A stretch of 31,785 bases of DNA, from positions 1 through 31,785 of the IMG/VR virus record IMGVR_UViG_3300010373_000105. One strand, given 5' to 3'. Both the position numbers and the translations under genes were made by a program. Position 1 is the stretch's first letter; the number at the start of each line of letters is the position of its first letter. The notes under the pieces are model-generated. The model saw nothing but the letters and a program-made list of their open reading frames with translations, was not told the origin of the DNA and did no database searches. This stretch comes from a virus. Of the stretch, positions 1-27,414 are shown in pieces.

Positions 1-59
1 ATCCAATCGTTGCTGCGATCCGGAATCGGCGGGAAGACGTGCTCGGTCTTGAGTTTCAT
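1..59 (-). CDS. Small conserved phage protein, N-terminal part only
   Basis: The first 19 codons of a leftward gene are visible before the window ends; they begin MKLKTEHVFPPIPDRSNDW. The VFPPIPDRSNDW stretch resembles the start of a very short acidic protein often seen in the early regions of proteobacterial phages, where related versions read roughly YPPIPxRxxDW. That comparison is from memory and no function is known. The ATG (59-57) overlaps the TGA of the gene upstream as ATGA, so it is probably translated by coupling. An AAGGG about 10 nt upstream could also serve as ribosome site. The rest of the gene lies outside the window. Confidence 0.6.
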   Translation of the reverse strand, partial: MKLKTEHVFPPIPDRSNDW

Positions 60-172
60 AACGGCGTACCCTTGAAGGCGCAATAGGCGCGGATTAGAGC
101 GGCGAGACAGGCGACCGCACTGATGGCAGTGAGGGTGAGCAGCAGCCGCTCCTTGGGCGTCAGGAGCGTCAT
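56..172 (-). CDS. 38-residue single-span membrane peptide
   Basis: This small gene encodes 38 residues starting MTLLTPKERLLLTLTAISA and ending CAFKGTPL. A short charged N-terminus (PKER) is followed by one hydrophobic span of about 20 residues (LLLTLTAISAVACLAALI), then a short polar tail. Both ends are coupled: the ATG overlaps the TGA of the upstream gene (ATGA, 172-169), and its own TGA overlaps the ATG of the next gene (59-56). That precise fit argues that it is a real gene although very short. Function unknown. It belongs to the leftward early operon driven from the promoter near 566-592. Tiny membrane proteins in such operons are sometimes lysis inhibitors or exclusion factors, but nothing in this sequence shows that. 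Confidence 0.6.
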   Translation of the reverse strand: MTLLTPKERLLLTLTAISAVACLAALIRAYCAFKGTPL

Positions 173-537
173 GAGGCCGCCCGCCAGCGGCGTGCATCGG
201 TTGCGCCATCCTCTGTCGCCTCGTACTCCTCACGCCGCGCGCATTCCGCCTGCACGTCGTGGAAGATCGCGCACCGGCAGGCGCCCTCGATCAAGCCCGG
301 CAGGATCGTGGCCGGGTTACGGCCGCTGCCTTTGAGTTCTACGAAGTATTCGAGATGCTTGGCGAGCTGGTCGGTGACACCGACCGCACGCACGCGGCAG
401 ATGAGCTGCACCGCATCGTCATGTAGTTCGGGAAGGTCGGCAGCCGTCCAGCCGCCGCAGTGAGGCTGCAGGTCGCTGAGCGATTGAATCAGGATCGTGA
501 AGGAAACTTCGTCGGCGTTGCGCTGCTGGCTGTACAT
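169..537 (-). CDS. Hypothetical protein, first gene of the leftward early operon
   Basis: This gene encodes 122 residues starting MYSQQRNADEVSFTILIQ. It has an excellent ribosome site, GGGAGG 5-6 nt upstream of the ATG, which supports the start at 537. The centre contains several cysteines (CGGW, LICRVR, CRCAIF, ECARRE) without the spacing of a clear zinc finger. The C-terminus is charged (RREEYEATED) and probably helical. I do not recognise the family. It is the first gene downstream of the repressor-controlled promoter at 566-592, with a leader of roughly 20 nt, so it should be expressed early or on induction. It is coupled to the 38-residue membrane gene through ATGA. Confidence 0.7.
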   Translation of the reverse strand: MYSQQRNADEVSFTILIQSLSDLQPHCGGWTAADLPELHDDAVQLICRVRAVGVTDQLAKHLEYFVELKGSGRNPATILPGLIEGACRCAIFHDVQAECARREEYEATEDGATDARRWRAAS

Positions 538-565
538 GGAACCTCCCGGATTCGATGGGAGGCAG

Positions 566-592
566 CGTATACCCGTCTTTGGGTAGTGTCAA
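566..592 (-). promoter_or_regulatory. Leftward early promoter (PL-like)
   Basis: On the minus strand a perfect -35 box TTGACA (592-587) is followed, after 15 bp, by TATACG (571-566) as the -10 candidate. Transcription would start near 559, giving a short leader into the gene at 537. The spacer contains a whole operator (571-584) and a second operator abuts the -35 box. The 15-bp spacer is short for sigma-70; read with a 17-bp spacer the -10 would be TACGCT. The same geometry is present in the rightward promoter at 1030-1056. Confidence 0.7.
571..584. promoter_or_regulatory. Repressor operator 1 (in the PL spacer)
   Basis: ACCCGTCTTTGGGT is an inverted repeat of form ACCC-N6-GGGT. It lies between the -35 and -10 of the leftward promoter, so a bound repressor would block RNA polymerase. 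The same pattern occurs at 592-605 and 1038-1051, which makes chance unlikely. Confidence 0.75.
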
Positions 593-605
593 CCCATGTT
601 TGGGT
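592..605. promoter_or_regulatory. Repressor operator 2 (upstream of PL)
   Basis: ACCCATGTTTGGGT has the same ACCC-N6-GGGT form as operator 1. Its centre is 21 bp from that of operator 1, about two helical turns, so dimers bound to the two sites would lie on the same DNA face and could cooperate. It touches the -35 box of the leftward promoter. Confidence 0.75.
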
Positions 606-650
606 ATTTATTTCGAGGGAGGATCGCCAAGGGGGAACTGGATTATGTTA

Positions 651-4949: not shown

Positions 4950-6210
4950 TGTTCACTTCCCGCCGAACCTAGAGCGGCTCTTTGAGCCCGCGCCGTACAA
5001 GGTCCTAAGGGGCGGTAGGGGAGGGGGCAAGAGCTGGGCGGTAGCGAGGGCGTTACTGCTCCTGGGGCTGCAGCGCAAGATTCGCGTGCTCTGTACGCGC
5101 GAGACACAGAAGTCGATTCGAGAGTCGGTTCACCGGCTGCTGGTAGACCAGATCGCCCGCTTGGGGTTGGCTGGCTACTACGGTATCCAGCAGGTACAGA
5201 TCACCGGATTGAACGGCACGGAGTTTATCTTTGCCGGTCTTTCGGATCAGACCGCGGCCAGCATCAAATCTTTCGAAGGCGTGGATATCTGCTGGGTCGA
5301 GGAAGCCCAGGTCGTCACGGACAACTCATGGACGATCCTCCTGCCCACGCTCTTTCGCAAAGAGGGGGGCAGTTGCGAGGTATGGATTACCTTCAACCCA
5401 GAGCTTGATTCAGACCCCACGTGGCGGCGGTTCGTCAAGGATCCGCCCCCCGGGACGATGCACTTCACGTGCAACTGGGACGACAATCCGTGGTTTCCCA
5501 AGGAACTCGATGAGCTGCGCTGTCACGATGAGCGCACCTTGCCGGCGTACGAGTACGAATGGATTTGGAGTGGTAAGTGCAAACCAGCGATTGCAGGGGC
5601 CATCTACGCCGATGAGATCGCGCAGATGGAGCAGGAGAAGCGCATCTGTGCCCTGCCGTACGACGCCTACCATCTCGTCTACCCGGTAGTGGATATCGGG
5701 TGGAACGACACGCATTCCATCGGATTCTGGCAGCGGCACTTCTCGAGCCTGCGGTGTATCGACTACTTGGAGGACGATCACAGGACCTGGGACTGGTATT
5801 CCAAGGCGATGCGGGAGAGGCAGTACAGCTTTGGCTGCATCTTCCTGCCGCACGATGGTGGCCACGGGAACGTGCAGACCGGCAAGACCGATCAGACGAT
5901 CCTGGAGCAGCTCGGCTGGCGGGTGACGGTCTTAGAGCGCAAAGAGACCGAGCAGGGCATACGCGATACCCGCATGGCGATGCGCCAGATGGCCTTTGAT
6001 GGGGAGAAATGCTCGACCCTCATCGAGCACTTGCGTCGCTATCGGCGGGTCATTCCCCCGGGGACTGGCGAGCCTGCCAAACCGCTCCACGATGAGCATA
6101 GTCACGGCTCGGACATGGTGCGTTATGCCGCTCAGGCCGCGCAGCAGATGGATGATGAAATCGGCATGAACCTGCCGCCGCTTAAGTACGGCAATTCGGG
6201 GCTGATCTAG
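4942..6210 (+). CDS. terL: Terminase large subunit
   Basis: This gene encodes 422 residues, a usual length for PBSX/Terminase_3-type large subunits. The N-terminal ATPase has a Walker A motif GGRGGGKS (residues 24-31) and a Walker B with catalytic glutamate in DICWVEEAQ (115-123). The C-terminal RNase H-like nuclease starts around VVDIGWNDTHSIGF (249-262), with D251 as first metal-binding acid, and ends around HSHGSDMVRYA, where D391 is the likely last acid. The enzyme pumps DNA into the prohead and cuts the concatemer. The gene overlaps terS by 8 nt, and its TAG shares one base with the GTG of the next gene. Confidence in the assignment is high. Confidence 0.95.
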   Translation: MPDVHFPPNLERLFEPAPYKVLRGGRGGGKSWAVARALLLLGLQRKIRVLCTRETQKSIRESVHRLLVDQIARLGLAGYYGIQQVQITGLNGTEFIFAGLSDQTAASIKSFEGVDICWVEEAQVVTDNSWTILLPTLFRKEGGSCEVWITFNPELDSDPTWRRFVKDPPPGTMHFTCNWDDNPWFPKELDELRCHDERTLPAYEYEWIWSGKCKPAIAGAIYADEIAQMEQEKRICALPYDAYHLVYPVVDIGWNDTHSIGFWQRHFSSLRCIDYLEDDHRTWDWYSKAMRERQYSFGCIFLPHDGGHGNVQTGKTDQTILEQLGWRVTVLERKETEQGIRDTRMAMRQMAFDGEKCSTLIEHLRRYRRVIPPGTGEPAKPLHDEHSHGSDMVRYAAQAAQQMDDEIGMNLPPLKYGNSGLI

Positions 6211-6425
6211 TGAAAGTCTCAGACTTCGCGTTGCCCCCTGTAACGCAGGCCGAGGCCGAGCGCGCCGAGCACTCCGTCTGTCCCTATCACCGCAAGAGCC
6301 CGCGCAACTGGTGGCGCGAGGGACAAGCCTATTTCTGTCCCGTGGGTCGACAGCTCTGGCGCTACACCGAGAAACGCGTGGGGATGTACGCCCCGCTCCC
6401 TTATTCGCATACCGGAATCGTATGA
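6210..6425 (+). CDS. Small protein with Cys/His residues
   Basis: This gene encodes 71 residues from a GTG that shares one base with the terL stop. The centre contains CPYHRKSPRNWW and then YFCPVGRQLWRY, a spacing that hints at a small metal-binding knuckle (CxxH ... C), although a fourth ligand is not clear. Similar very short proteins with cysteines and tryptophans occur in early and late regions of many phages. Function unknown. It lies between terL and portal and is coupled on both sides, downstream by ATGA. Confidence 0.6.
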   Translation: MKVSDFALPPVTQAEAERAEHSVCPYHRKSPRNWWREGQAYFCPVGRQLWRYTEKRVGMYAPLPYSHTGIV

Positions 6426-6619
6426 CCATCCGCACTGAACTCGATGTCGAGGACCTCAAGGCCCGCGTGAAGACGCTGGAGAAGGCCGTAGGCGGGCGCG
6501 TATCCCAGGTGGCCGATAAGGTGGGGGTAGCGACGAAAGACGATCTGGACGCATTCCTTGCGCGCCTACGGGCATTTGAAGCCGACCTCTCGTCCATCAA
6601 GAAGCGATTGAAGCTCTGA
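6422..6619 (+). CDS. Small coiled-coil protein
   Basis: This gene encodes 65 residues starting MTIRTELDVEDLKARVKTLE. Heptad-like helices occur at both ends (VEDLKARVKTLEKAV and LRAFEADLSSIKKRLKL). The ATG overlaps the upstream TGA (ATGA) and the stop overlaps the portal ATG (TGATG). The longer frame from 6311 would overlap the previous gene by more than 100 nt and is not preferred. Unrecognised. A role alongside the portal or terminase is suggested only by place. Confidence 0.6.
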   Translation: MTIRTELDVEDLKARVKTLEKAVGGRVSQVADKVGVATKDDLDAFLARLRAFEADLSSIKKRLKL

Positions 6620-8865
6620 TGGCCGAATCTCGCATGAGCGACGATGATCTTCTGGTGCTCATTGGCCGTGAAGAGAAGTCAGCGCTCGGCTCTCCTATCG
6701 CAGCTGGGGCCGTCATCGGGACGATGTACGCCTCTGCCGCCCAGGAGATGACGACGCTGCAGGTCGATCGCTACAACGCCTTGAACGCCTATTGGGCAAG
6801 ACCCATGGGCAATGAGGTCGAGGGGCAGTCGGCGGTGGTGATCCCGGTGATTCGGGATTCGCTCGAATGGATCGCCGCTCAGCTGATGCGCGTATTCGAC
6901 GATGCGCGGACTCCCGCGGTCTTCGAGGCCGAGGACGAAGGTGATATTCAGCTCGCCGAGCTTGAAACGGAAGGCGTGCGGCACGTCTTCATGTCCGAGA
7001 ACGATGGTCATACCATCATCCAGGACTACATCAAAGACGCGTTGCTCTTACGCAACGGCTACATCAAGGTCTGGTGGGACCCCACTGCGGTTACCGTTCG
7101 TGAGCGCTATACGGGCCTCACCCAGGAAGAAGTTACCGACCTTATCGCCAATCGCGACGAGGTCGAGATTCTGGAACAGCGGGAGCGGCAGGTCGATATG
7201 CCGGCCAGTCCGGATGCCCCTCCTGCGCAGCCTCCGGTGGCTCCTAATGCGCAGCCGCCTTCCATGCCGCAGGTATCCGCCCCAGGCGCCGGCAATGAGT
7301 CTCCTGCGGCCCCTCTCACTGTCTTCGACATCACCATCCGGGTGAAGAAGGCGGACGGGCGCCTGCGCATGGCCTGTATCGCCCCGGAAGACGTGCTCGT
7401 ATCGAACAAGGCGACGAGTGCGAACCTCGATGATGTGCCCTTTGTCGAGCACAAGAGCACGATGACCCGCTCGGAGCTGATCTCGCAGGGGTACGAGAAG
7501 GACTTCGTTGATAAGCTCGTGCCGGGCAAGCGCGAATGGCTCGATATCGACGCTTTAGCCCGCGACATCGTCGCCGATCAGCTCTCGATCCCAGAGATGA
7601 GCGAGTCTGAGAGAGCCTCGCAGGAAATCGAGGTGCGGGATGTGATCCTGCGCGTCGATTACGACCGGGATGGGCTCACGGAGCTGCGGCACATCTGTGT
7701 CACTGGCGATAAAATCGCCGACAACGAAGAGATCGAGGAATGTCCCATCGCCTCCGGCTGCGCCAAGCGCATGCCGCACCGGCACACCGGGATCAGCCTC
7801 TACGATGACCTGCAGGACCTTCAGGCCATCAATAGCCAGCTCGCCCGCGAGTCGCTGAACAATCTCAGACTCGCGAACAACGCACGCACGGTCGTGGACT
7901 GGAAGAACTGCAACCTCACCGACCTGATGACTTCCCGTGCCGGTGGTGTCGTTCGCGTGAATGGCCAACCCCGCGCTGTCGTTGAAGCGATGCAGCACCC
8001 TTCGAACCTCACCGATCAAGTGCTGCCGATGTTCGAGCAGTTGGACAAGTGGCGGGAGTTTCGGTTGGGGATCGGGCGCGATACGCTCGGGCTGGATCCG
8101 GATGCGCTTCAGGATGTCACTGCGACCGCTCACCTTGCGGGACTGTCGTCTGCCACCCTGAAGCTCGAAATGATGGCGCGCTGTCTCGCGGAAGGATTGC
8201 GCGATGCGATGATCAAAGCGCGAAACCTGCTCGTGCGGCATCAGAAGCAGCCGCTTTTCTTCAAGCTCCGGGGCAAGTTTCAGAAAGTGGACCCGCAGAG
8301 CTGGAAGCCCGATCGTTCTGCCATTGCAGTGAACGTCGGCTTGGGCTCAGGCAACCGTCCCGAGCAGCGCCAGAACCTGATGCTACTGCAGCAGGGGATG
8401 GAGAAGGCTGCCGCGGTGGGACTGGTGGGTCCGAAACAGGTCTACAACGCCTTCCAGCGCTGGGCCACGATGCTAGGGGAGGATCAGCCCGAGCAGTTCG
8501 TGATGGACCCGGACAGCCAGGAGTTCAAGCAGTGGATGGCGCAGCACCCGCCCCAGCCCAACCCTGCCGTTGTGGCCGCTCAGACGCGCCTACAGGCGAC
8601 GCAGGTACAGGCCCAAGCGGGACTACAGAAAGCGCAGATACAGGAGCAGGGAGCTTCCCAGCGCGCCCAGGCCGAGGTTTTGCACGGGGCGCTACAGGGT
8701 AGCGAAGACCGCGGAGTCGATATGGCCAATATCGACAGTCAGGTCACGCGAGACTTACTCAAGATCATCGCGCAGATCGTCGCCGCGCAGTACAAGCAGG
8801 ACCCCAATGCGAATGCGGGTCAGGTGCTGCGAAGTGACTTGGCATCGCTTGAGGGCCGGGCATGA
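6619..8865 (+). CDS. Portal protein
   Basis: This gene encodes 748 residues, in the size range of the large P22- or SU10-type portals of podoviruses. The protein forms the dodecameric ring through which DNA enters and leaves the capsid. The N-terminal part (RYNALNAYWARPMGNEVEGQ, then SAVVIPVIRDSLEWIAAQLM) is typical of the family. A proline/alanine-rich stretch at about residues 193-233 looks like a flexible surface linker. The crown and clip regions follow, with DVILRVDYDRDGLTELRHIC at about 338-357. The C-terminal 100 residues are glutamine/alanine-rich and helical (RLQATQVQAQAGLQKAQIQE), consistent with an internal barrel domain. The place after terL and before scaffold and capsid genes agrees. 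Confidence 0.9.
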   Translation: MAESRMSDDDLLVLIGREEKSALGSPIAAGAVIGTMYASAAQEMTTLQVDRYNALNAYWARPMGNEVEGQSAVVIPVIRDSLEWIAAQLMRVFDDARTPAVFEAEDEGDIQLAELETEGVRHVFMSENDGHTIIQDYIKDALLLRNGYIKVWWDPTAVTVRERYTGLTQEEVTDLIANRDEVEILEQRERQVDMPASPDAPPAQPPVAPNAQPPSMPQVSAPGAGNESPAAPLTVFDITIRVKKADGRLRMACIAPEDVLVSNKATSANLDDVPFVEHKSTMTRSELISQGYEKDFVDKLVPGKREWLDIDALARDIVADQLSIPEMSESERASQEIEVRDVILRVDYDRDGLTELRHICVTGDKIADNEEIEECPIASGCAKRMPHRHTGISLYDDLQDLQAINSQLARESLNNLRLANNARTVVDWKNCNLTDLMTSRAGGVVRVNGQPRAVVEAMQHPSNLTDQVLPMFEQLDKWREFRLGIGRDTLGLDPDALQDVTATAHLAGLSSATLKLEMMARCLAEGLRDAMIKARNLLVRHQKQPLFFKLRGKFQKVDPQSWKPDRSAIAVNVGLGSGNRPEQRQNLMLLQQGMEKAAAVGLVGPKQVYNAFQRWATMLGEDQPEQFVMDPDSQEFKQWMAQHPPQPNPAVVAAQTRLQATQVQAQAGLQKAQIQEQGASQRAQAEVLHGALQGSEDRGVDMANIDSQVTRDLLKIIAQIVAAQYKQDPNANAGQVLRSDLASLEGRA

Positions 8866-9259: not shown

Positions 9260-10339
9260 GTGCCAGATCAGCAGCAAGCGCCAGTCACAGACTCAAGCGC
9301 CCCGCCAGTCAATATCGAGAGCCCCGACGAGGCCAGCTTCCAGTCCCTGTTCGATCAGGGCGCATTTGCCCCGACCGATGAGAAGGGCAATACGCTGCCG
9401 AAGGAGGACGAGCAACGCTTAGAGCGCGAAGCGCAGGGCGGCGAGCAGGCCAAGGAGCCCGAGCCCGAAAAGCCCGAGGAAGAGGCCACACCCGAGACTG
9501 AGCCGGAGGGCAAGGAATACGACTCCCTCGACACTTACCTCACGGAACAGAAGCTCGATCGGGATGCGTTCCTAGAGCTTCCCGTCGCCGTCAAGATCGA
9601 CGGCAAGGATCAGCAGATCACGTTGAAGGAGGCGATCGACGGCTACAACCTTCGCTCCGTCTCCCAGGCTCGCATCCAGCAGGCGACTGAAGAGCGCCAG
9701 CAGTTTCAGATCGAGCAAGCCAAGGTGCGTCAGGCCCTGGGGGTGCGCATTCAGGATGCCGAGGCGCTTTTCAAAGCGGCACTCGATCAGCACATGGGTG
9801 ATTTCAACCAGATCACCCCTCAGCAGTGGCAGCAGCTTCGGGCCGATAACCCGGGCGAATACGCTGCCCTCACGACCCAATGTCAGCAGCGCCAGCAGGC
9901 GTTGCAGCAGCTTTTGCAACAGGCTGCCCAAGCGAGGCAGGCGGAAGCCGAGCAGGCCCAAAAGGCCCAGCTCCAAGCGATCCCGGCCGAGCGCGAGAAA
10001 CTGTTGCAGGCGCGTCCGGAGTGGCGCGACCAGGCGAAATTCGAGTCCGCAAAGACTCAGATCGTCAGTGCCGCACGGAAGCTCGGGTATACCGATGCCG
10101 AGTTGCAAAGCTTGACCGACCATCGACACCTTCTGGTGCTCGATCTGGCGGCGAAACAGCTCCAACTCCAAGCCTCTGCTCCCGGTGTGATGAAGCGTGT
10201 CAGGGCGGCTCCCAAGATGGCAGCCCCCGGTGCACGTCAGACGCGCGACCCCAAGCGCGACTCCTACACCAGCGCTCGTGATGCCTTCATGCGTACCGGT
10301 AGCGAAGCTGCCGCCGCTGAGGCGTTCGAGCACTTCTAA
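9260..10339 (+). CDS. Capsid scaffold protein
   Basis: This gene encodes 359 residues from a GTG with AAGGTGAG just upstream. The protein is acidic at the N-terminus (EKPEEEATPETEPEGKE at about residues 70-90) and then carries the recurrent motif VAVKIDGKDQQITLKEAIDGY (about 114-134). A long glutamine/alanine-rich coiled-coil region follows, residues about 145-260. The C-terminus is basic (GVMKRVRAAPKMAAPGARQ), as expected for the part that binds the coat protein. Such scaffolds guide coat assembly and leave the prohead. The position directly before the major capsid gene fits. No protease motif was seen, so this is not an obvious protease-scaffold fusion. Confidence 0.85.
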   Translation: MPDQQQAPVTDSSAPPVNIESPDEASFQSLFDQGAFAPTDEKGNTLPKEDEQRLEREAQGGEQAKEPEPEKPEEEATPETEPEGKEYDSLDTYLTEQKLDRDAFLELPVAVKIDGKDQQITLKEAIDGYNLRSVSQARIQQATEERQQFQIEQAKVRQALGVRIQDAEALFKAALDQHMGDFNQITPQQWQQLRADNPGEYAALTTQCQQRQQALQQLLQQAAQARQAEAEQAQKAQLQAIPAEREKLLQARPEWRDQAKFESAKTQIVSAARKLGYTDAELQSLTDHRHLLVLDLAAKQLQLQASAPGVMKRVRAAPKMAAPGARQTRDPKRDSYTSARDAFMRTGSEAAAAEAFEHF

Positions 10340-10348
10340 GAGGCTCCC

Positions 10349-11344
10349 ATGACCGTCCCCACCAATACCCAGCAGACCTACACCCAGACCAATATCCGGG
10401 AAGACCTCTCGAACATGATCTACAACGTAGATCCCTTCGAGACTCCCATCCTCAACATGGCCAAACGGAGCAAGGCCGAGAACATCCTGCACGAGTGGGA
10501 TACCGACCAGCTCGCTGCCCAGGACCTCACCAACGCGCAGATCCAGGGCGATGACGCCACGGCCGTAGCGCTCACCCCCACCGCTCGCTTGGGGAACTAC
10601 TCGCAGATCCTGCGCAAAGTGGTTTCCATCGCCGGCACCTCCCAGGCCGTGCGGGCCGCGGGCGGATCGAACAAGATGGGCTATCAGCTCCTGAAGAAGT
10701 CAAAGGAGCTGAAGATGGACATGGAAGGTGCGATCACCAATAACCACGCACGCGCGGCAGGTACGGCGACCACGGCGGGGTTCATGGGCGGCATTGCCTC
10801 CTTCCTCACCGTCAACTGCGTCTTTCAGACGGGGGGTACCCCTTCCGGTGCAAATCCCACGGGCGTCACGGCTGCGGGCTCTGAGAGCTTCGGCAACGGC
10901 ACCACGACTCGCACGGATAACTCGGCGCTTGCCGCGCTCACCGAGGCGCAGGTGGAGACCCTGGCACAGGATGTGTACGTAGCGAGTGCGAAAAAGGTCC
11001 CCTACCTCGTCGTCTCGGCCGTGATCAATCCGGCCATCTCGAAGTTCACAGGTGTCGCCGGCACGCGTTTCAATCAGGTCGAGGACAAGACCTTGAAGAA
11101 CGTGATCGATGAGTACGAGACGGATTTCGGCACCATCAAGGTCGTTCCGAGCTTGAAGCTCGCACGCAGCAAGGACGTATACGGAATCAACCCCGAGTAT
11201 CTGAAGGTTGCCTACCTTCGGCCCTTCCAGACTGTCCCGCTCGCCAAGACCGGCGACTCGGACAAGAAGATGCTCATCGTGGAGTGCACGCTCGAAGTCT
11301 GTAACGAGCGGGCGCTGGGTGGAATTTTCGATACTGCGGGATAG
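10349..11344 (+). CDS. Major capsid protein, SU10 type
   Basis: This gene encodes 331 residues starting MTVPTNTQQTYTQTNIREDL. The following NMIYNVDPFETPILNMAKR and HEWDTDQLA match the start of the SU10-type major capsid protein family (DUF5309), HK97-fold coat proteins of many podoviruses. The middle contains MGYQLLKKSKELKMDMEGAI (the spine-helix region) and then a variable loop around residues 140-190. The C-terminal half includes FNQVEDKTLKNVIDEYETDF, and the end ECTLEVCNERALGGIFDTAG is also family-like. A ribosome site (AGAGG) lies before the ATG. A strong terminator follows the gene at 11379, as expected for the most abundant virion protein. Confidence 0.93.
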   Translation: MTVPTNTQQTYTQTNIREDLSNMIYNVDPFETPILNMAKRSKAENILHEWDTDQLAAQDLTNAQIQGDDATAVALTPTARLGNYSQILRKVVSIAGTSQAVRAAGGSNKMGYQLLKKSKELKMDMEGAITNNHARAAGTATTAGFMGGIASFLTVNCVFQTGGTPSGANPTGVTAAGSESFGNGTTTRTDNSALAALTEAQVETLAQDVYVASAKKVPYLVVSAVINPAISKFTGVAGTRFNQVEDKTLKNVIDEYETDFGTIKVVPSLKLARSKDVYGINPEYLKVAYLRPFQTVPLAKTGDSDKKMLIVECTLEVCNERALGGIFDTAG

Positions 11345-11378
11345 CGTAAGCGCTTGATTCTTTCCGTGAGACGAGTTT

Positions 11379-11406
11379 GGGCCACCCTCTGGTGGCCCTT
11401 CTTTTT
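11379..11406 (+). terminator. Rho-independent terminator after the capsid gene
   Basis: GGGCCACC (11379-11386) and GGTGGCCC (11391-11398) form a perfect 8-bp stem with a CTCT loop, followed by TTCTTTTT. It lies 35 nt after the capsid stop and probably lowers transcription of the genes downstream relative to the coat gene. Confidence 0.85.
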
Positions 11407-11416
11407 GGAGGGCTAA

Positions 11417-11719
11417 ATGGCCTTTTGGACCCCGATTTCCCCGTGGCGGCTCCGTGCTGGAACCGCCCGTACCGTTGCGATTGGCGCGACGTCCGCTTCA
11501 TCGACCGCGATGGAAGCGGAAACCCGAGCGGTCATGATTACCGCTTCATCTAACTGTCACATCAGCATCGGCCCCGCGCCGCAGACCGCAGTCGCCACCG
11601 GCACGCCAGTACTCGCCGGCTGGCCGCCCATCATCCTAGCCTGTGGCAAGGGGGATGTGATCGCGACGATTCAAGATAGCGCGGCCGGCACGCTTTCGAT
11701 CACTGAACTGACCCACTAG
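11417..11719 (+). CDS. Small structural protein, possible capsid decoration
   Basis: This gene encodes 100 residues starting MAFWTPISPWRLRAGTARTV. The composition (alanine, threonine, serine; beta-rich) and segments such as GTARTVAIGATSASSTAM, PQTAVATGTPVLAGW and GDVIATIQDSAAGTLSITEL resemble the small beta-sandwich proteins often encoded right after the coat gene. In several phages these decorate the capsid (family knowledge by analogy, not by specific match). GGAGGG precedes the ATG, placed just after the terminator. The TAG shares one base with the GTG of the glycosidase-like gene. Confidence 0.55.
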   Translation: MAFWTPISPWRLRAGTARTVAIGATSASSTAMEAETRAVMITASSNCHISIGPAPQTAVATGTPVLAGWPPIILACGKGDVIATIQDSAAGTLSITELTH

Positions 11720-13989
11720 TGACGAAGGCGGTAGCGGTCAAGAGCTGGACGCTCAATACATGGACGGACGGCACGAAAAGGAGCTATCCGCAGGGCGCGC
11801 AATTTCCCTTCACCGTCGGTAATTCTGGCGGAGTGACCCCTGGGGATGGTAACTCCCCGCCCACCTATCAGGACCAGATGCAGAACTCCCGTGGTTTCAT
11901 GACCACGGCTGATCTGACGGTACATGCCGCCTTGGATGCAAGTGGGTGGCCGACCACCGATTTTCAGACCCTGCTGACTGAAACGCAGAACTACAGCATC
12001 GCTCCTAACTGGAACTCTGGCGGCTATGCATGTGGATTTACGAGCAAAGGAACCGGTACGGAAACCATCACCCCCACAGGCGCAACGGTGAGCGGTCAAT
12101 CGTACAACTCCGGTACCAAGCAGGTCACCTTCACGCTCACCCCCACCGTCTCTGCTAGTGTCTTTGGATTTAAGGTAACAGGGACCACGGGCGGCGCTAC
12201 GAACGTCTTTGCGATGCTCCCGGCCTATGCGGCGAATACGCCCAGAAATGCTGGCGGCAGCGCTTCAAATCTCTACACGACAGAGTACAAAAACAAGCTC
12301 TCGGCGATGCCGTTGCAGCGAAACCAGATCTGGTGCCTTTGCATCTGGAATCTCTCCACGAATAGCTGGAGCACGCACCACAGCCCCACCAATAGCCCAG
12401 TCGGAAGTCCCGGATACACCGGGGGCTGGCGCGGTAGTGGGACGATTGGGAACGGCTCGGAGGGATATTCGGTCGAGGACTTCGTCACGCTCTGTAATCA
12501 GACGAGTTCATACCTTTGGCAGTGCAATCCCTACTTTGATGACGGCACGTATGCCGGTGGGGCTGCCACTTATATTGTCAACAATCTCACTGCCGAGTTT
12601 TCGTTCTACGAACTCGGCAATGAGGGATGGAACACCGGGGATGGCGGCATTGGTTCGGCCATGCTGACGATCTCGGGCCAGTTCATCGCTGCCAACCCGG
12701 GCGTGATCGACTATGACGGCGCCTTTTCCACGACCGCGAGCGGCACTTCAGGCACGAATACGATTACCGTTACGTCCGTTCCGGCGACTTGGGCGGTCAA
12801 TCAGACCATTAGCAGCAATTCTCCCGGAATCCCCCAGCCGACCGGCATTCAGGCGATATCAGGGACGACGGTCACGTTGACACAAAATCTCACTGCGAAT
12901 CTGACGGGCGCCTCGGTGGCATCGCAGAACGCGGCGATGGTGCGCCGCTTATGGGCCAAGCAGCACACTGCCATGGCAGCTCAGATTTCAGCCGCTGTCG
13001 GCAGCAATTACGGCACCAAGGCCAATATGGTGCTGTGCTGGCAGACGGGCAACACATCGAACATCGCCGGGATGCTCGCCTACATCGCCACCAAGATTGG
13101 CACCGTCAGCAGCTACATTCACTATCTCGCCATCGCGCCGTACATGACGCGCAACAATTCCGCGATTCCCTCTGATGGCGTCAACCACATCAACGTAAAC
13201 GACACTGTCGCGAATATCCAAGCGCAACTCACGACTAACGGTACCTATCGCGGCTACCTCGCGCAGATGGAGCAGCTGCTGATTTTGGCTCTTTCTTATG
13301 GCCTAAAGGGCACACTGACCTACGAGTGCGGCTGGGAAACGGCAGGCGAGACGACGGTCGCGGCGAGCTTGGGCGCCGCTATCATGGACAGCGGCATGGG
13401 CGCGGTGACGACGAACTATCTCACCCACTCCGTCTATGAGTGCGGCGCGCAACTTGCGAACAATACGAGCTTTGGGGTTGTTAATTCCAATAGCGTACTC
13501 GATCCGAATTATGGCATGTCGAACGATCCGAACACGTTCGTGACCAGCGGCTCGCCACGATTCAATGCACTCTCGGCATTCCAGTCGAGTCCACCAGCGA
13601 GGGCGCGCAATGTGGTCGCGGCCAGCGGTGCGACGATTGATCTGATCAATTACGCAGATAATGCCGTCGGGCTTTCGAGCACCTATCCGAACCTCGGCGG
13701 CAAAACAGTCTTCACGGCGTCGAAGCCAACGGGTGGTAGCGGCAACCCCGTGCACATTCACGCGCCGGTGGCCGGCACCTACTCGCTCTCCTGCACGTTC
13801 GCGAATACGGCGAGCGGCACGACGACGGGCCTTGAATGCAATGGAGCCACGCTCGCTGGCGTCTCGGTACCAAACGGCACGCCGACCGTCGCCCTCGGGA
13901 CCATAACGCTAGTACAGGGTGAGAACTATGCGGTTATCTGGGCAACGAATCAGACTGGCTGCATACCTAAGAGTCTGACCTTCACATGA
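11719..13989 (+). CDS. TIM-barrel glycosidase-like virion protein with possible CBM
   Basis: This gene encodes 756 residues from a GTG. The order is: an N-terminal region; a beta domain at about 105-165 (ETITPTGATVSGQSYNSG); a barrel-like part with YELGNEGWN (E302 as candidate acid/base); an inserted Ig-like bead at about 337-402; IHYLAIAPYM at about 473-482; and TYECGWET, with E536 as candidate nucleophile. A C-terminal domain from about 630 (AGTYSLSCTFANTAS ... GTITLVQGENYAVIW) resembles CBM6/35-type carbohydrate-binding modules. The GNE strand followed by a second glutamate is the hallmark of retaining clan GH-A enzymes. It probably binds or cleaves a surface polysaccharide. Its place between capsid and adaptor genes is unusual and suggests display on the head. 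The exact GH family cannot be named. Confidence 0.65.
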   Translation: MTKAVAVKSWTLNTWTDGTKRSYPQGAQFPFTVGNSGGVTPGDGNSPPTYQDQMQNSRGFMTTADLTVHAALDASGWPTTDFQTLLTETQNYSIAPNWNSGGYACGFTSKGTGTETITPTGATVSGQSYNSGTKQVTFTLTPTVSASVFGFKVTGTTGGATNVFAMLPAYAANTPRNAGGSASNLYTTEYKNKLSAMPLQRNQIWCLCIWNLSTNSWSTHHSPTNSPVGSPGYTGGWRGSGTIGNGSEGYSVEDFVTLCNQTSSYLWQCNPYFDDGTYAGGAATYIVNNLTAEFSFYELGNEGWNTGDGGIGSAMLTISGQFIAANPGVIDYDGAFSTTASGTSGTNTITVTSVPATWAVNQTISSNSPGIPQPTGIQAISGTTVTLTQNLTANLTGASVASQNAAMVRRLWAKQHTAMAAQISAAVGSNYGTKANMVLCWQTGNTSNIAGMLAYIATKIGTVSSYIHYLAIAPYMTRNNSAIPSDGVNHINVNDTVANIQAQLTTNGTYRGYLAQMEQLLILALSYGLKGTLTYECGWETAGETTVAASLGAAIMDSGMGAVTTNYLTHSVYECGAQLANNTSFGVVNSNSVLDPNYGMSNDPNTFVTSGSPRFNALSAFQSSPPARARNVVAASGATIDLINYADNAVGLSSTYPNLGGKTVFTASKPTGGSGNPVHIHAPVAGTYSLSCTFANTASGTTTGLECNGATLAGVSVPNGTPTVALGTITLVQGENYAVIWATNQTGCIPKSLTFT

Positions 13990-15218
13990 GCATAGGTTTA
14001 GGCACTGCGATCTCGGTATACGGTGCCACATCAGGCACCGCATTCGCCTCCAGCGTCCCGGCAGGGGATGTTATTGTCGTCTTTCTCAAGGCCACGACCG
14101 CAGCGGCTCCAACGGTCACCGACAACGTCAATACCGGCAACTATACCGAACTCAACTCATTCGCCGACTCGACCAATGGGCGGTGGATGTACGTTTTTTT
14201 CAAGCAGGCCACGGCTACCGGCACGCCGACAGTCTCAGTTTCAGGCCCCTCCGGCAATATCGTCATTGTCGATTTCACCGGATTTGTAGGTACCCCCACC
14301 GCGGACCCGACGCCAAACGGAGGCAATGGGTCGGCTTCTTCAGCGACTTACTCTATTACGCCGGTTGATACGGGCTTTAACAATTGTCTCATTCTTGGGG
14401 GAACCTCTCAAACCTCTAATAACCCAGCCATCGCGAGTGGATGGACGGCGGCAGGCGCGGCTGGTGGTGGCCCGCTGAAAGGTCAATACGCTGTCATTGC
14501 CACCTCTGGGACGAATACCCCATTCACGGGAGCCCTAGATACCACCACAGCCTATGATGCGGTCACGGCCGGCATCTACGATGCCCCCGCCGCAGCGACT
14601 CCCACGGTTACCTCAGTCAACGGCGGCTCTGCCTTCGCCGAGAACGCGACCAATGTCGCAGTAGTCGGGACGAACTTCGCCTCCGGGATGACGAGCCAGC
14701 TCGTGCAGGGCTCCATCTCGGTCGCTCAGCCGACGACGTTCACGAGCGCTACCGCTGCGACCTTTAACGCCACCGTCGGAACGCAGCTCGCGTACACGGA
14801 CGCCACCTACGTCACGACGTATAGCGTCACAGTCAGCGGCCAAACCAGCACCGGTATCGCAGCGACGATTACCCCGATTACGGGGAACATCTTTGAGACT
14901 CTAGCCTCGGTCAACGCTGTCTCGGCCGATCGGATCACGGCGACGCCTGATCTCGTCGCGGGGGATCAGCTCGAAGCTTCGGGTAATGCCACGGGAACGG
15001 CCGCTATCCCGACGGGACTTTCGCTCAACAACGATGCCACCTACCAGTTTGCGAGCGGGGATACGCCCGCTAACTTCTGGGTGCGCGCTTACGACTCGGT
15101 CAATCACGTCTGGGGCGCGTGGGCCGAGCAGCAGGTCGTGCCCAATCCTCTGCCGGCATCAACCGGTGGGGCACCGTTTTTCTCACTCGCTCCGGGACTC
15201 TTTCCGACTTTGAACTGA
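13986..15218 (+). CDS. Multi-domain Ig-like structural protein
   Basis: This gene encodes 410 residues, with the ATG overlapping the glycosidase stop (ATGA). Residues about 1-200 form a serine/threonine/glycine-rich beta domain (SVPAGDVIVVFLKATTAAAP, later NIVIVDFTGFVGTPTADPTP). Residues about 203-298 read like an IPT/TIG Ig fold: TPTVTSVNGGSAFAENATNV, then VVGTNFASGM. The last 110 residues contain LEASGNATGTAAIPTGLS and FWVRAYDSVNHVWGAWAEQQ, another beta sandwich. No enzymatic motif is seen. Coupled to the glycosidase-like gene, it is likely a partner: a head fibre, capsid decoration or adhesin. The location before the adaptor gene supports a head rather than tail-tip role, but this is inference. 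Confidence 0.6.
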   Translation: MSIGLGTAISVYGATSGTAFASSVPAGDVIVVFLKATTAAAPTVTDNVNTGNYTELNSFADSTNGRWMYVFFKQATATGTPTVSVSGPSGNIVIVDFTGFVGTPTADPTPNGGNGSASSATYSITPVDTGFNNCLILGGTSQTSNNPAIASGWTAAGAAGGGPLKGQYAVIATSGTNTPFTGALDTTTAYDAVTAGIYDAPAAATPTVTSVNGGSAFAENATNVAVVGTNFASGMTSQLVQGSISVAQPTTFTSATAATFNATVGTQLAYTDATYVTTYSVTVSGQTSTGIAATITPITGNIFETLASVNAVSADRITATPDLVAGDQLEASGNATGTAAIPTGLSLNNDATYQFASGDTPANFWVRAYDSVNHVWGAWAEQQVVPNPLPASTGGAPFFSLAPGLFPTLN

Positions 15219-15558: not shown

Positions 15559-16218
15559 GTGGCGCAAATCGTTGATTACGCTTCACTGAAACAGGCGCTT
15601 TTGGACTTCACGCACCGCGCGCAGCTGGGGAGCTATTTCGACTACTTCACGCAGGATGCCGAGGATTTGATCTATCGGACCGTGCTCGAACTCAACGAAG
15701 GCCAAGGGCTTTCCTGGATGGAGGCGAGCCTCTCGGGAACCATCGACGCCAACGGGCATCTGGCTGTCCCGAGTGATTATCTTGCAATGAAGGGCGCGCA
15801 GATCGATGCGGCCGGGGGACAGTTCAACCTCGTGATGCGCGACTCGCAGTGGATCTATGCGAACTATCCCATGCGTCTCGCTCAAGGAATACCGAGCTTT
15901 ATCGCAAGGGAGCAGGGTAACTTCATCTTCGGCCCCTTCCCGGATTCGAGTTATGCGATCGTGGGGACGTACTTTCAGAGGGCCACGGGACTTTCATCGA
16001 CTAATACCACCACGTGGATGGTGACGAACATCCCGCTAACCCTCTTGGCCGGCTGCCTCTATTCGGCATCGAAGTTCGTAAAGGACGCTGCCGCCGCTTC
16101 GGCCTATCTCGCTGAGCTTACCCAGCGCTTGACCGGCATCATCGATGCGGACAAGGCCAATCGTATGGGCAATGACCTTCAGATTGCCCCCGCTGACCCC
16201 GCTCCCGCAGGCTGGTAA
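15559..16218 (+). CDS. Head-tail adaptor protein
   Basis: This gene encodes 219 residues from a GTG. YASLKQALLDFTHRAQLGSY, LIYRTVLELNEGQGLSWMEA, GHLAVPSDYLAMKGAQI and later PLTLLAGCLYSASKFVKDAA fit the adaptor family that includes the SU10 adaptor and, more distantly, the T7 gp11-type proteins. These form a helical ring below the portal and connect it to the tail nozzle. The C-terminal helices (LAELTQRLTGIIDADKANRM) are typical. The gene precedes the nozzle genes as expected, overlapping by one base (TAATG). Confidence 0.78.
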   Translation: MAQIVDYASLKQALLDFTHRAQLGSYFDYFTQDAEDLIYRTVLELNEGQGLSWMEASLSGTIDANGHLAVPSDYLAMKGAQIDAAGGQFNLVMRDSQWIYANYPMRLAQGIPSFIAREQGNFIFGPFPDSSYAIVGTYFQRATGLSSTNTTTWMVTNIPLTLLAGCLYSASKFVKDAAAASAYLAELTQRLTGIIDADKANRMGNDLQIAPADPAPAGW

Positions 16219-17402
16219 TGCCAAGGCCCTATACCATCCGCTTCGGGCCCTGGACGCCCGATCTTCAGGACGTCGCGGTAGAGATGCCAAATCAATGGAG
16301 TGATACGGAACTACCGGTTGCGGACTGCCAGAACGTCTATTGGCAGGATGCCGCGTATCGGTGTCTACCCGGGTTGGCTTCGATTGGCCCCTCGCTTGGA
16401 ACGCCGATCCTCGATGCATTTACCTGGTACGACAACACCCAGCAAAAGGAAGTGCTCTTTGCGCTGACCGCCAACGGCGCTTTCACGATGATCGATCAGG
16501 TGTGGAGCGCGATCTCGACGGAAACGAACGAAAGCGCTGTCGGCCTTGCGCTCAGCGTGCAGCTTGGCTTGCCCCAAGCGCTCGCGACCGCGATGTCGCC
16601 CACCTCGCAATCCGTAAGCGGTACAGGATCATCGAATACATTTTCGGCTCTCTCGGCGGTCATCGGTTATGGAACGGCCACGAGCTACAGTTGGTCGTTC
16701 ACTGGCATTACAGGCCCCGGTAGCTGGAGTATCGCAAGCGGGGCCGGGACGGCGACCGCTACGCCCGAAGTGACCGGCTCGACTTCAGGGAGCACGAGTA
16801 GTGCAACCTGCGTGTGCACCATCATCTTTAGCGGCCTGGCCTACGGGGTGAGCGCAACGCTCTCCTACACGCAGAACACTCCCTCGCCACTCCTTCGTGC
16901 CTACACCTCCGGAAGTGGCACGGAGACAGTTCCCCCTGGCTACGGCACTCTCGTTATCGAGGCGTGGGGCGGTGGCGGTGGTGGGTCGGTCTCCGATGGG
17001 ACTGCCTCATGGCTCGGAGGGGGCGGTGGGGGCGGTTATTCGCGCTCTTCCTACTCGGTGGGTGAAGGCCAGACGCTCAACTATCAAGTTGGCGCGGGCG
17101 GCGGGGTCAATCTGCACGATAACGGCATTGCCGGGGGCGCTTCATCGGTTTCATCAGGCTCGCTCTCCATCACTACCATGACCGCTAATGGCGGCTCTGG
17201 CGCCTCTGGCAGTGGGATAGGAGGTGCGGCCTCAGGAGGTAATCAGGCGAATGCATCCGGGGGCAATGGGGTCCTCGCGGGCGCTGGCGGCTCCACTACT
17301 GCCGGAGTTCACGCCAACACCGGCCCCACCAACGGCGTGGGCGGCAACTATGGCGGCAATGCAGGAACTGCCGGTATGGTCAGTTTCTACTACACGGCTT
17401 GA
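16218..17402 (+). CDS. Tail nozzle protein, N-terminal piece with Ig and Gly-rich insert
   Basis: This gene encodes 394 residues. Residues 1-113 (MPRPYTIRFGPWTPDLQDVA ... CQNVYWQDAAYRCLPGLASI ... DAFTWYDNTQQKEVLFALTA) look like the start of a podovirus tail nozzle, a beta-propeller ring protein. Then the family pattern is broken by a PKD/Ig-like domain (about 120-225, with SYSWSFTGITGPGSWSIASG) and a glycine-rich domain (about 232-394) with long Gly runs (AWGGGGGGSV, GGGGGGGYSRSS) ending GMVSFYYTA. Glycine-rich domains of this type occur in phage receptor-binding and tail proteins. The frame stops at 17400-17402 exactly where a nozzle would continue. The rest of the nozzle is in the next frame, so this looks like a split gene. 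Confidence 0.65.
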   Translation: MPRPYTIRFGPWTPDLQDVAVEMPNQWSDTELPVADCQNVYWQDAAYRCLPGLASIGPSLGTPILDAFTWYDNTQQKEVLFALTANGAFTMIDQVWSAISTETNESAVGLALSVQLGLPQALATAMSPTSQSVSGTGSSNTFSALSAVIGYGTATSYSWSFTGITGPGSWSIASGAGTATATPEVTGSTSGSTSSATCVCTIIFSGLAYGVSATLSYTQNTPSPLLRAYTSGSGTETVPPGYGTLVIEAWGGGGGGSVSDGTASWLGGGGGGGYSRSSYSVGEGQTLNYQVGAGGGVNLHDNGIAGGASSVSSGSLSITTMTANGGSGASGSGIGGAASGGNQANASGGNGVLAGAGGSTTAGVHANTGPTNGVGGNYGGNAGTAGMVSFYYTA

Positions 17403-18817
17403 ATATGGGTGGTTATAACGCAAGTTTCTGGTCGTTCGCGCCGATAGGGCCGTACCTCGCGGTGATTCCATATACCACCAATGCTGCCGTGACAGGCCCC
17501 TACCTCTGGTCGAATGCGGGAGCCAACAGCAAGCTTCAGGTGCCTGCTGGAGCGCCGGGCTGCCGGGTGGGAGCGACTGTCGGGCAGTTTCTGATGCTCG
17601 GTGATCTTTTTGAGCAGCAGACGCAGGCGTTATTTACCCCCACGGGAAGCCAAAGTAGCTTCTCCGGGACGCTCTCGGCACCGGTTGCTGATGGCGGCAC
17701 GATCTACGATCAGAACGGCGCGCTCTCGGGAACGATGGCGAATGGCAGCATCACGGGAACGGGCGATCTCGCTTCGGGCACGGTGAACTATGCCACGGGG
17801 GCCATCACGCTCACCTTCGGGACCGATCCTCCCTCGGGCGATATCGTCACGGCGAAATACACGCAGGTCGTTCCTTATCGGGTGTGGTGGAGCGCCATAG
17901 GGGACCCGACTAATTGGCCAACCCCGGACACGGATGCGGCCATTGCAGCGCAAAGCAGCTTCGAGGATTTAAATCCCGATTCGGGCCAGGTGATGTTCAT
18001 TGCGGGATATCCACTCTACGCGCTCATCTTCCAACGCTTCGGGATCACGCGGGCGAATTATGTAGGCGGGGATACGGTCTTTGACTTCGCCCCTTACGAG
18101 TTCACCCACGGGGTGATAGCCCATGGGGCGGCCGCTCAGGTCAATAGTCTCGTATTCTTCCTCGCGGATGACGGATTTTTCGTCACCGACGGTGCGAATG
18201 TGATCCCGATCGGGACGGACGCCGAGAATTCCCAAGGAATCGACAACTGGCTCTGGGCGAACATCAACATGGGAGCGCTCGAAGCGATCCGCTCGGGCTA
18301 CGATGCCGCCAAGCGGTGCGTGTTCTTTGCGATTGCGACGGGCACCAATACGCTCCCTGATACGCTGCTCTCCTACAACCCGCTGGCCCGAAAGTGGACG
18401 CGCTCACTTGTCGCCTGCGAGACGATATGGAGCGCCGATAACGGCACGGATGCGTTTCCACCGACCCGGCAGCTTCTCGGGATCATCGATCAGACCCATA
18501 CGCCGAATACGCTTTCTGGCTCGCCCCTTACGGGTTATCTGGAGAGCGCGGACATCTACTTCGTGGATGGCTCAAGAAGGCTTACCGTCGGTGTGCGCCC
18601 GAATGTGAGCTGTACGGATGATCCGCTCTGTACGGTAGGGGCGCGTGATTCGCTGGAAGATGCCGTTACATATGGCTCCGGCGCCACTCCCGATGCTTTC
18701 ACGCGCATAGCCGATGCGCTCTCATCGGGCATGTACACCCGCGTGCGCATCCAAAGCGATTCTGCAACGGCCCTTAAGGGCGGCACGCTTTATCTGGAAC
18801 AGGATTCACCGGTATGA
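17399..18817 (+). CDS. Tail nozzle protein, C-terminal piece
   Basis: This gene encodes 472 residues from TTG 17399, which overlaps the upstream TGA, or 470 from ATG 17405. GYNASFWSFAPIGPYLAVIP and then VGQFLMLGDLFEQQTQ continue the nozzle pattern. YRVWWSAIGDPTNWP is a hallmark of the propeller, followed by FIAGYPLYALIFQRFGITRA, FAPYEFTHGVIAHGAAAQ, VFFLADDGFFVTDG and GIDNWLWANIN. Between FTPTGSQ and VPYRVWW lies an extra beta module (about residues 80-157, with SGTVNYATGAITLTFGTDPP) of a kind seen in fibre and baseplate proteins. The C-terminus (RVRIQSDSATALKGGTLYLE) is beta-rich. No good Shine-Dalgarno sequence precedes the start, so expression depends on coupling to, or frameshifting from, the previous gene. 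Confidence 0.75.
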   Translation: MNMGGYNASFWSFAPIGPYLAVIPYTTNAAVTGPYLWSNAGANSKLQVPAGAPGCRVGATVGQFLMLGDLFEQQTQALFTPTGSQSSFSGTLSAPVADGGTIYDQNGALSGTMANGSITGTGDLASGTVNYATGAITLTFGTDPPSGDIVTAKYTQVVPYRVWWSAIGDPTNWPTPDTDAAIAAQSSFEDLNPDSGQVMFIAGYPLYALIFQRFGITRANYVGGDTVFDFAPYEFTHGVIAHGAAAQVNSLVFFLADDGFFVTDGANVIPIGTDAENSQGIDNWLWANINMGALEAIRSGYDAAKRCVFFAIATGTNTLPDTLLSYNPLARKWTRSLVACETIWSADNGTDAFPPTRQLLGIIDQTHTPNTLSGSPLTGYLESADIYFVDGSRRLTVGVRPNVSCTDDPLCTVGARDSLEDAVTYGSGATPDAFTRIADALSSGMYTRVRIQSDSATALKGGTLYLEQDSPV

Positions 18818-25527: not shown

Positions 25528-27414
25528 ATGGCCCTCGCCGGTACTCAAAGCAACCGACCACGTCTCCCGGCTCTTCCCCAGGGGCTCCCGAAGACCCAGC
25601 AGGACTGGGACCGGCTCGTGAACGTCTTCCAGCAGTGGCAGCAGCAGTTGCAGCTCCCCGGACGCACCGCAGCCGAGATCGCAGCGGGGGTGACGCCGGT
25701 CAACTTCGCGTATGCGCCGGGGAACGTGCTCCGCTACGGAGCAGATCCAACCGGGGTGAACGACTCGACCACCGCCATACAGGCAGCGCTCAACGTCGCG
25801 AACCAGGGAGGCATTTACGGCTGTTACGCACCGGCCGGGTCATATAAGACAACCGTCACTCTGACGGTCTACCCGAATACCGTCCTGCGCGGAGATGGCC
25901 GCGCGACCACAGTCATAGAGTACACCGGCACGGGCGATGGCATCCAGTCTATCCAGTCGATAAACGCCTCGACTGCGGTGCGTATCGAGGTGCGTGACTT
26001 CGGCATCACTTGCACCAACGCGACGAGCGCCGGCGGTGCCTACGTGGACGTGGGGGGATCGTACTGGGCACTGCGCAACGTGCGTACCTCGGGGTTCAAA
26101 TTCGGGGTCGTCCTCGACCAGAGCGAGATCTGCGCGATCCGCGACTGCGAGTTCCAGATCCCGGCGATTGCGAACGCGACCGGTTGCTGGCTGGTCAACG
26201 GCGCCGATCATACGGTCGGTGCCAACGGTCTCTACACCAATCGCGTGACCATCGACGGCTGTCAGTTCAATGCCGCCACGGGGGCCACCAATTACGGCAT
26301 CGTTGACGACGGCGGCACCAACCACACCATTTCTAACTGCAACGTCAACGCGCCATCTTTCGGGATGCGCTTCGCCAATGTATTCGGGCTCACGCTGATC
26401 GACAATGAGTCAGAGTCCTGTCCTTCGGTCGATGTGGATTTTGAGGAGACGACCGCTGGTATTGGGTTGCTGAGTTCCACCTACGCCGGGCCAGTCGTCG
26501 GCTTTAAAGCGCTCGGAAACGTCTGGATATCGACCGGCATATCACATAACTTGCGCCTCGCATCCGCGCGAAATGGTGTCGTAAGTGGCAACGTGTTCGG
26601 CCAGGCGGTAGGTGCATGCATCAGCTTCTTTGGCGGCGCGACGAACCCTTGCAGCGGCATCGTCATCGAAGGTAATGAGAAGCTTGTCACCGGCACCGGC
26701 AAGACGGCCGCACCATTCTTTTCGGCCTCCACGCTAGCAATCCTGCGCGCCAATAAACTGCGCCAAGTACCGCAAACCTACGTCTCCGGCGCGCTTGCCG
26801 CCACGGGCAGTCAGATCGTGACGCCCGAGACGATGGAAAATATCAAAGTGGGCACTCGGCTCATGGCGCGTAACGCGGATGGGAGCAATACTGAGCAGAT
26901 CAGCATCACTGCCATCACTAGCACCCAATTAACGGCAACATTTGCGAGCGTCAAGGCCGCGAACTGGGTACTCCTCGGGATCACCGGATGGGACGAAGAA
27001 GAGGGCACCTGGACGCCTGTGCTCGCGGGTGCCACGACCGCTGGGGCTAACACCTACGCTGCGGACACCTTCGGCAAATGGCAACGCCGTGGCAACTTCG
27101 TGCACGTCTCCGGCGTGATCGACATTTCGGCCAAGGACGCCTCGATGAGCGGTTCGTTAGAGATCACGGGACTGCCATTCGAGGCCAGCAACGTCACGAA
27201 CTACAACGGCATGGCTGCGGTGAGCCTCTTCAGCGGATTCACTTTCGCGACGGCATCCACTCAGATGGGCGGCTTTATCAGCAATGGCGGCACGAATATT
27301 CAGCTGCGCCGATCCGGTAGCGGCGTCGCGCTCACGCCTGTCGCGGCAACCGATATCGCGAGCACCACCTGTAGCCTCTACTTCGAGGCGACATACTCCA
27401 CAGATTCTGCCTGA
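25528..27414 (+). CDS. Tailspike, pectate-lyase-like beta-helix
   Basis: This gene encodes 628 residues. Residues 1-62 are a short N-terminal virion-binding part, proline and glutamine-rich. VLRYGADPTGVNDSTTAIQ (67-85) is the classic entry of the Pectate_lyase_3 beta-helix superfamily used by phage tailspikes. A right-handed beta-helix follows (to about 450), with regular strands such as VRDFGITCTNATSAGG, CQFNAATGATNYGIVDDG and ISNCNVNAPSFGMRFANVFG. From about 490, GTWTPVLAGATTAGANTY begins a C-terminal beta-sandwich module common at spike ends, ending ITGLPFEASNVTNYNG ... TTCSLYFEATYSTDSA. The spike should bind and perhaps cleave surface glycans, fixing host range. Catalytic acids cannot be assigned by eye. 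Confidence 0.85.
   Translation: MALAGTQSNRPRLPALPQGLPKTQQDWDRLVNVFQQWQQQLQLPGRTAAEIAAGVTPVNFAYAPGNVLRYGADPTGVNDSTTAIQAALNVANQGGIYGCYAPAGSYKTTVTLTVYPNTVLRGDGRATTVIEYTGTGDGIQSIQSINASTAVRIEVRDFGITCTNATSAGGAYVDVGGSYWALRNVRTSGFKFGVVLDQSEICAIRDCEFQIPAIANATGCWLVNGADHTVGANGLYTNRVTIDGCQFNAATGATNYGIVDDGGTNHTISNCNVNAPSFGMRFANVFGLTLIDNESESCPSVDVDFEETTAGIGLLSSTYAGPVVGFKALGNVWISTGISHNLRLASARNGVVSGNVFGQAVGACISFFGGATNPCSGIVIEGNEKLVTGTGKTAAPFFSASTLAILRANKLRQVPQTYVSGALAATGSQIVTPETMENIKVGTRLMARNADGSNTEQISITAITSTQLTATFASVKAANWVLLGITGWDEEEGTWTPVLAGATTAGANTYAADTFGKWQRRGNFVHVSGVIDISAKDASMSGSLEITGLPFEASNVTNYNGMAAVSLFSGFTFATASTQMGGFISNGGTNIQLRRSGSGVALTPVAATDIASTTCSLYFEATYSTDSA

Follow-up and report, generated by a model that had tools for sequence, protein, structure and literature searches.

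The beta-helix tailspike depolymerases are phage-encoded proteins that act on polysaccharide. The gene described here would resemble them in both respects, but is predicted to encode a barrel rather than a beta-helix, lies at another place in the genome and belongs to a phage that has a separate protein of the beta-helix type. By position, its closest described counterparts are found in the interval between the major capsid protein (MCP) and head-tail adaptor genes of two phages. In SU10, the gene between MCP gp9 and adaptor gp11 encodes gp10, a small Ig-like protein that is not an enzyme and was seen neither in the virion map nor on the capsid of that phage (PMC9509320). In the cultured Sinorhizobium phage phiM5, the slot is occupied by gp14, an SGNH/GDSL hydrolase of the esterase/lipase type whose sequence record carries the annotation 'detected in phage particle proteome'. 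It is this annotation that constitutes the particle evidence for gp14 (for the phiM5 proteome study, see doi 10.1016/j.jsb.2017.08.005, as cited in PMC10386132). Like our gene, which is predicted to encode one, the gp14 gene specifies an enzyme from the MCP-to-adaptor slot of a related phage, but its product has an unrelated fold and reaction and is no glycosidase.

By structure, the best matches are GH79 enzymes, Burkholderia heparanase (5bwi) and Acidobacterium capsulatum beta-glucuronidase (7psk/3vny), (beta/alpha)8 barrels with a glutamate pair after strands beta4 and beta7. By sequence, the relatives belong to an unnamed bacterial family, exemplified by Shinella WP_306035508 and Gloeothece WP_013334405, with the motifs VEYSNEvWN and VAYEGGqH. 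A search for papers on glycosidases borne on phage heads found none in the library consulted; the Peru-2 paper describes tailspikes and no capsid enzymes.

A variable slot in the head module

The window analysed here is the entire virus record, 31785 bases, from a soil-type short-tailed phage with an SU10/LUZ24-type podovirus head module. The genes relevant to this account are as follows, L004 and L005 being relatives with MCPs 68% and 69% identical, respectively, to that of the window.

4942 (start): terminase
6619 (start): portal, phrog_1216
9260 (start): scaffold, phrog_3927
10349-11344, + strand: SU10-type MCP (PF17236 1.9e-82, phrog_1328)
11417-11719, + strand: 100-aa protein beside the MCP, at the SU10 gp10 position; homologue kept in L004
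11719-13989, + strand: glycosidase-like accessory gene (the target), overlapping both neighbours
13986-15218, + strand: another accessory gene in the slot (410 aa), absent from L004
15226-15555, + strand: 109-aa gene ahead of the adaptor, with homologues in L004 and L005 (translations compared)
15559-16218, + strand: SU10-type head-tail adaptor (PF24175 4.7e-19, phrog_2941)
25528-27414, + strand: separate beta-helix tailspike (PF12708 9.8e-10, phrog_2234 tail spike)

The target is an intact ORF of 756 amino acids with a GTG start. Its start codon shares one base with the stop codon of the upstream gene (TAG/GTG, 'tagtg'), and its end shares four with the downstream gene (ATGA). Its GC content, 0.58, is similar to that of the adjoining genes (0.58-0.63). 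Its position within the head module, ~11.5 kb upstream of the tailspike, agrees with the gene order on which the original prediction was built. The 100-aa protein may, from its position, have a role in capsid decoration; the 410-aa protein has no family match in Pfam or PHROGs.

Between MCP and adaptor, related phages differ widely. In L004 the 100-aa gene is followed directly by the 109-aa gene and the target is absent, whilst L005 has four other genes in the slot (9421-12538); across 25 related contigs the interval ranges from 0.3 to 5.4 kb. Because L004 lacks the target and the contents of the slot vary among relatives, the target is an accessory gene. With homologues in both L004 and L005, the 109-aa gene probably forms the far border of the variable slot. 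One L005 slot protein, of 569 amino acids, contains what on inspection looks like a LamG-type part, and its C-terminus weakly matches gp77, the GP4 fibre-tail adaptor (E 0.004).

The same slot houses the family in a second, unrelated head lineage. In L104, L107 and L109, with a phrog_371-type capsid protein, a phrog_12985 adaptor and an Hc3 head closure protein (phrog_578), a family gene again lies between MCP and adaptor; L109 retains both glutamate motifs, and a tailspike encoded apart from the family gene is present in L104 and L107. In L082 the family gene is immediately ahead of a phrog_2941 adaptor. In other phages the family gene has different places among the late genes, for example between portal and scaffold (L076), close to lysis and tail-fibre genes at a distance of about 13 kb from the adaptor (L088), before the tape measure (L106) and upstream of the terminase (L097). 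The suggestion that this is an uncommon design thus survives in part: of the named SU10/LUZ24-type relatives inspected, the majority have small genes at most, or nothing comparable, in the slot, but two head lineages have the family gene.

The match between phiM5 and the window is seen in the MCP (40%) and the adaptor (5e-7). Proposed homology of phiM5 gp15 and gp13 to the window genes at 15226 and 11417 was unsupported by BLASTP, so that the parallel rests on MCP, adaptor and gene order.

Downstream of the adaptor, the nozzle-type gene at 16218-18817 looks split. L004 has a single ORF of 477 amino acids, of which residues 1-56 match a part of ORF 16218-17402, where a Gly_rich_2-like domain follows, and residues 170-472 match a part of ORF 17399-18817. 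This may be a true split, a frameshift or an assembly error.

Predicted fold and catalytic glutamates

A single-sequence AlphaFold model of the target was useless (pLDDT 30). An alignment-based AlphaFold (AF2) model (mfbf1d2fe3fc3; pTM 0.72) shows a (beta/alpha)8 barrel with eight strand/helix repeats and pLDDT above 80 for most of the core (residues 50-575); the N-terminus, the insert at residues 334-396 and the tail are poorly modelled. The features of the protein map to the gene as follows.

11800-13587, + strand: predicted catalytic (beta/alpha)8 barrel with insertions, residues about 28-623 (AF2 model; VIA-align 27..629)
11962-12216, + strand: predicted beta-sandwich between barrel strands 1 and 2, residues about 82-166 (pLDDT mostly >85)
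12622-12624, + strand: Glu302 codon (NE motif; putative acid/base that follows barrel strand 4), invariant in 95/95
12694-12906, + strand: beta4-alpha4 loop insert, residues about 326-396 (low pLDDT), long in the phage subset
13324-13326, + strand: Glu536 codon (YE motif; putative nucleophile that follows barrel strand 7), invariant in 95/95
13591-13986, + strand: C-terminal CBM-like beta domain, residues about 625-756; the L107 equivalent matches CBM_35

The two motifs singled out in the original prediction are present: the second glutamate of YELGNEGWN is residue 302 and that of TYECGWET is residue 536. In the model, E302 stands just past barrel strand 4 (296-300), preceded by N301, and E536 just past strand 7 (531-534). 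Model and alignment thus agree with the proposed two-glutamate layout of clan GH-A, with an Asn-preceded glutamate after beta4 and another after beta7. Six positions (E298, E302, W304, N305, Y535 and E536) are invariant in the 95-row alignment and N301 is found in 94 of the 95 rows. Seven rows came from a scan with patterns containing the catalytic motifs. The other 87 relatives were recruited with the patterns RFMDW and PWFxMPH, free of either glutamate motif, and in these the invariance of E302 and E536 is therefore no selection effect. The target also keeps Tyr475 but is divergent in other respects, with Ser at column 571, where 86 of 95 rows have Trp, and Tyr at column 598, where Trp is found in 91 of 95.

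Foldseek alone gave weak matches, the best (E 7.9e-3) to GH79, and none below 1e-3 in its viral library. When the candidates were realigned with VIA-align, enzymes of GH79, GH51, GH164, GH44, GH39 and GH5 scored Z 17-20 over about 270-330 residues (rmsd 3-4.3). The top match was GH79 heparanase (Z 20.4), and 5bwi and 7psk/3vny aligned with Z 18-20 and rmsd 3-4 over about 290-310 residues, at only 11-14% identity. As several families score alike, the fold evidence supports clan GH-A but no single family: GH79 is not singled out, since GH51, GH164, GH44 and GH39 enzymes score no more than about 1-3 Z units apart from it. That the target has the clan GH-A fold is very probable.

At the sequence level, no Pfam match to GH5, GH51 or GH79 was found at E up to 1, nor to GH44 or GH164, and for these five the similarity is in the fold; for GH79, no GH79C members were recovered for a profile. 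GH39 (PF01229) failed as a sequence-level assignment, with no Pfam match and hhalign probabilities of 0.1-0.2 against 21 GH39 proteins, although the GH39 fold is similar to the model (Z about 18). A right-handed beta-helix of the tailspike depolymerase kind was also considered for the target and rejected: the model is a barrel, and it is the gene at 25528-27414 that encodes a beta-helix protein in this phage.

A family common to bacteria and phages

On its own, the target protein has no match in Pfam (E up to 1), PHROGs, NCBIfam or PDB sequences, and none among named phages; in viral contigs its sole match is a near-identical partial contig (98% over 59 aa). A permissive plasmid search gave sub-significant matches that lay inside residues 182-306 and in every case stopped at the NExWN motif. 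The full-length plasmid relatives have the whole architecture in common with the target, in that LDxxGWP, GxxVEDmvxLxN, NExWN, LAIAPY and YExG follow one another as they do there, and pairwise BLASTP of the target against the Shinella protein WP_306035508 gave 2e-8. A jackhmmer search from the target gathered 80+ members over residues about 40-620, and profile scans found at least 80 bacterial loci and about 40 viral loci. The target is therefore homologous, across the entire catalytic region and with both motifs, to an uncharacterised NExWN/YEGG family. Among the at least 80 bacterial loci most are cyanobacterial, the others including proteobacteria, Myxococcota, Planctomycetes and Chloroflexota.

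The catalytic regions of three bacterial members have no match in Pfam or NCBIfam, and the family alignment profile found no solved relative among PDB sequences; nearly all of its matches there were antibody chains, which aligned to the beta-sandwich insert and were taken as noise. The family is large, widespread and common to bacteria and phages, and no entry for it was found in Pfam, NCBIfam or PHROG or among solved structures. One further candidate, EVC30_047 of Rhizobium phage RHph_Y1_11, was set aside: it has no family-profile match and reads like an SGNH-type hydrolase, and the shared part looks like a phage beta domain.

Bacterial members resemble the target in having the beta-sandwich after barrel strand 1 (at about residues 82-166 of the target in the alignment) and in the VEDmvxLxN, NExWN, LAIAPY and YE motifs. 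They differ in their short beta4-alpha4 loop, in mostly lacking the CBM-like tail and, in some cases, in possessing a signal peptide (Shinella) or RTX repeats (Thioclava). The segment corresponding to residues 308-400 is 93 amino acids long in the target and 112-142 in seven phage relatives, as against 31-41 in 74 bacterial relatives; a tail of 75-132 amino acids is found in the target and six phage relatives. The C-terminal CBM-like domain claimed originally is only tentatively upheld: the L107 tail gives a CBM_35 match at 3.6e-5, whose 24.5 bits fall just short of the 28-bit Pfam cut-off, and beta strands are modelled in the target domain at low confidence. In the tree, the target groups with L082, L071, L105, L108, L104 and L107, with SH-aLRT of only 84-85 and long branches.

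Some phage members carry additional sequence. The first ~630 residues of the L107 protein (6117-8003) read like a GH5-type barrel (LRGTNQGTW; ALELLPEP) ahead of the family barrel, with INQLG where the nucleophile glutamate is usual, together with a LamG-like part; GH5 is not reported there by Pfam. In L076 (6459-9943) the N-terminal motif MT-AGLLSFGR-V-AS is found both in the family protein and in the product of the next gene, and might serve the two for docking. In L104 (4126), L108 (6395) and L109 (7632) the protein starts with a few basic residues and a linker rich in proline ahead of the barrel, possibly an anchor.

In bacteria, two members (L069 and L068) lie in exopolysaccharide-type clusters on alphaproteobacterial plasmids, and genes adjoining some members encode polysaccharide export, O-antigen ligase and RfbA functions. 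These neighbours point to exopolysaccharide as what the family acts on, without naming a substrate, and bacteria may use the family at least partly in exopolysaccharide gene clusters.

A probable role in crossing the host sugar coat

From what is directly observed (the gene, its position, the conserved glutamates, the predicted fold, the family and the accessory status), we favour, with some reserve, the reading that the gene encodes a clan GH-A glycosidase acting on host polysaccharide, an accessory protein probably carried on the particle, at head or neck, beside the tailspike. As an accessory late gene inserted between capsid and adaptor genes, it would supply an enzyme that cuts host surface or matrix polysaccharide (exopolysaccharide or capsule) by a double-displacement (retaining) mechanism, with E302 as acid/base and E536 as nucleophile. 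The C-terminal CBM-like domain, and perhaps also the beta4-alpha4 insert, may hold the sugar chain, and the product would complement the tailspike in passage through the host sugar coat. That the target is an active enzyme is likely, and well supported because the fold, the placing of the glutamates and the clan GH-A structural matches agree.

Whether the product is part of the virion is a separate matter, for which gene order and phiM5 gp14, the best argument by analogy, make a reasonable case; presence in particles is on balance probable. Several observations count against the favoured reading, namely the family genes placed elsewhere in other phages, the divergence of the target, the failure to see SU10 gp10 on the capsid and the want of any recognisable virion-anchoring domain in the target, whose barrel begins at about residue 28. 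The original prediction had gone further and put the enzyme on display at the head. As stated this finds no support here, as the slot could equally feed the neck, and a place on the capsid surface is rather unlikely. Equally doubtful is a fuller version, in which many copies attached to each capsid would let the head clear polysaccharide while the tailspike works at the tail, and the slot would be a docking site for swapped enzymes (a glycosidase in the target phage, an SGNH hydrolase in phiM5).

An active glycosidase might instead work outside the virion, being made late, freed at lysis and diffusing into the matrix, there freeing progeny or opening the biofilm. The several late-region places of family genes, including that near lysis and tail-fibre genes in L088, are in keeping with this, as is the lack of a visible anchor; no signal peptide is apparent on inspection of the target N-terminus, which fits lysis release as well as packaging. 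The overlapping gene starts within the head cassette, the reuse of the slot in a second head lineage and the virion annotation of the phiM5 slot enzyme all speak the other way, and we regard release at lysis as less likely than a place on the particle.

Less plausible again is an inactive virion lectin, its barrel and CBM-like domain holding the particle at the cell surface. Glycan binders of the Ig/CBM type are known on phage capsids (mycobacteriophage Douge, PMC13033339), the target has a CBM-like tail, and its divergent sequence has replaced two family-conserved aromatic residues; it has nevertheless retained both catalytic glutamates, the Asn before the acid/base and Tyr475, and a purely binding role is improbable. 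An auxiliary metabolic gene supplying the host with sugar during infection, the category in which soil-virus glycoside hydrolases are often listed (PMC6172770), is very improbable for a gene that lies in a head cassette, away from metabolic genes, that shows no export signal on inspection, and whose slot in phiM5 holds an annotated virion protein.

For the family, the finding brings a predicted fold, two probable catalytic residues and a role that can be tested. For podoviruses, it draws attention to a slot in the head module into and out of which enzymes appear to be swapped; in one cultured phage the slot enzyme is annotated as a virion protein. Both the passage of phages through exopolysaccharide and the question of whether soil-virus glycosidase genes listed as metabolic are sometimes parts of the particle are touched by it.
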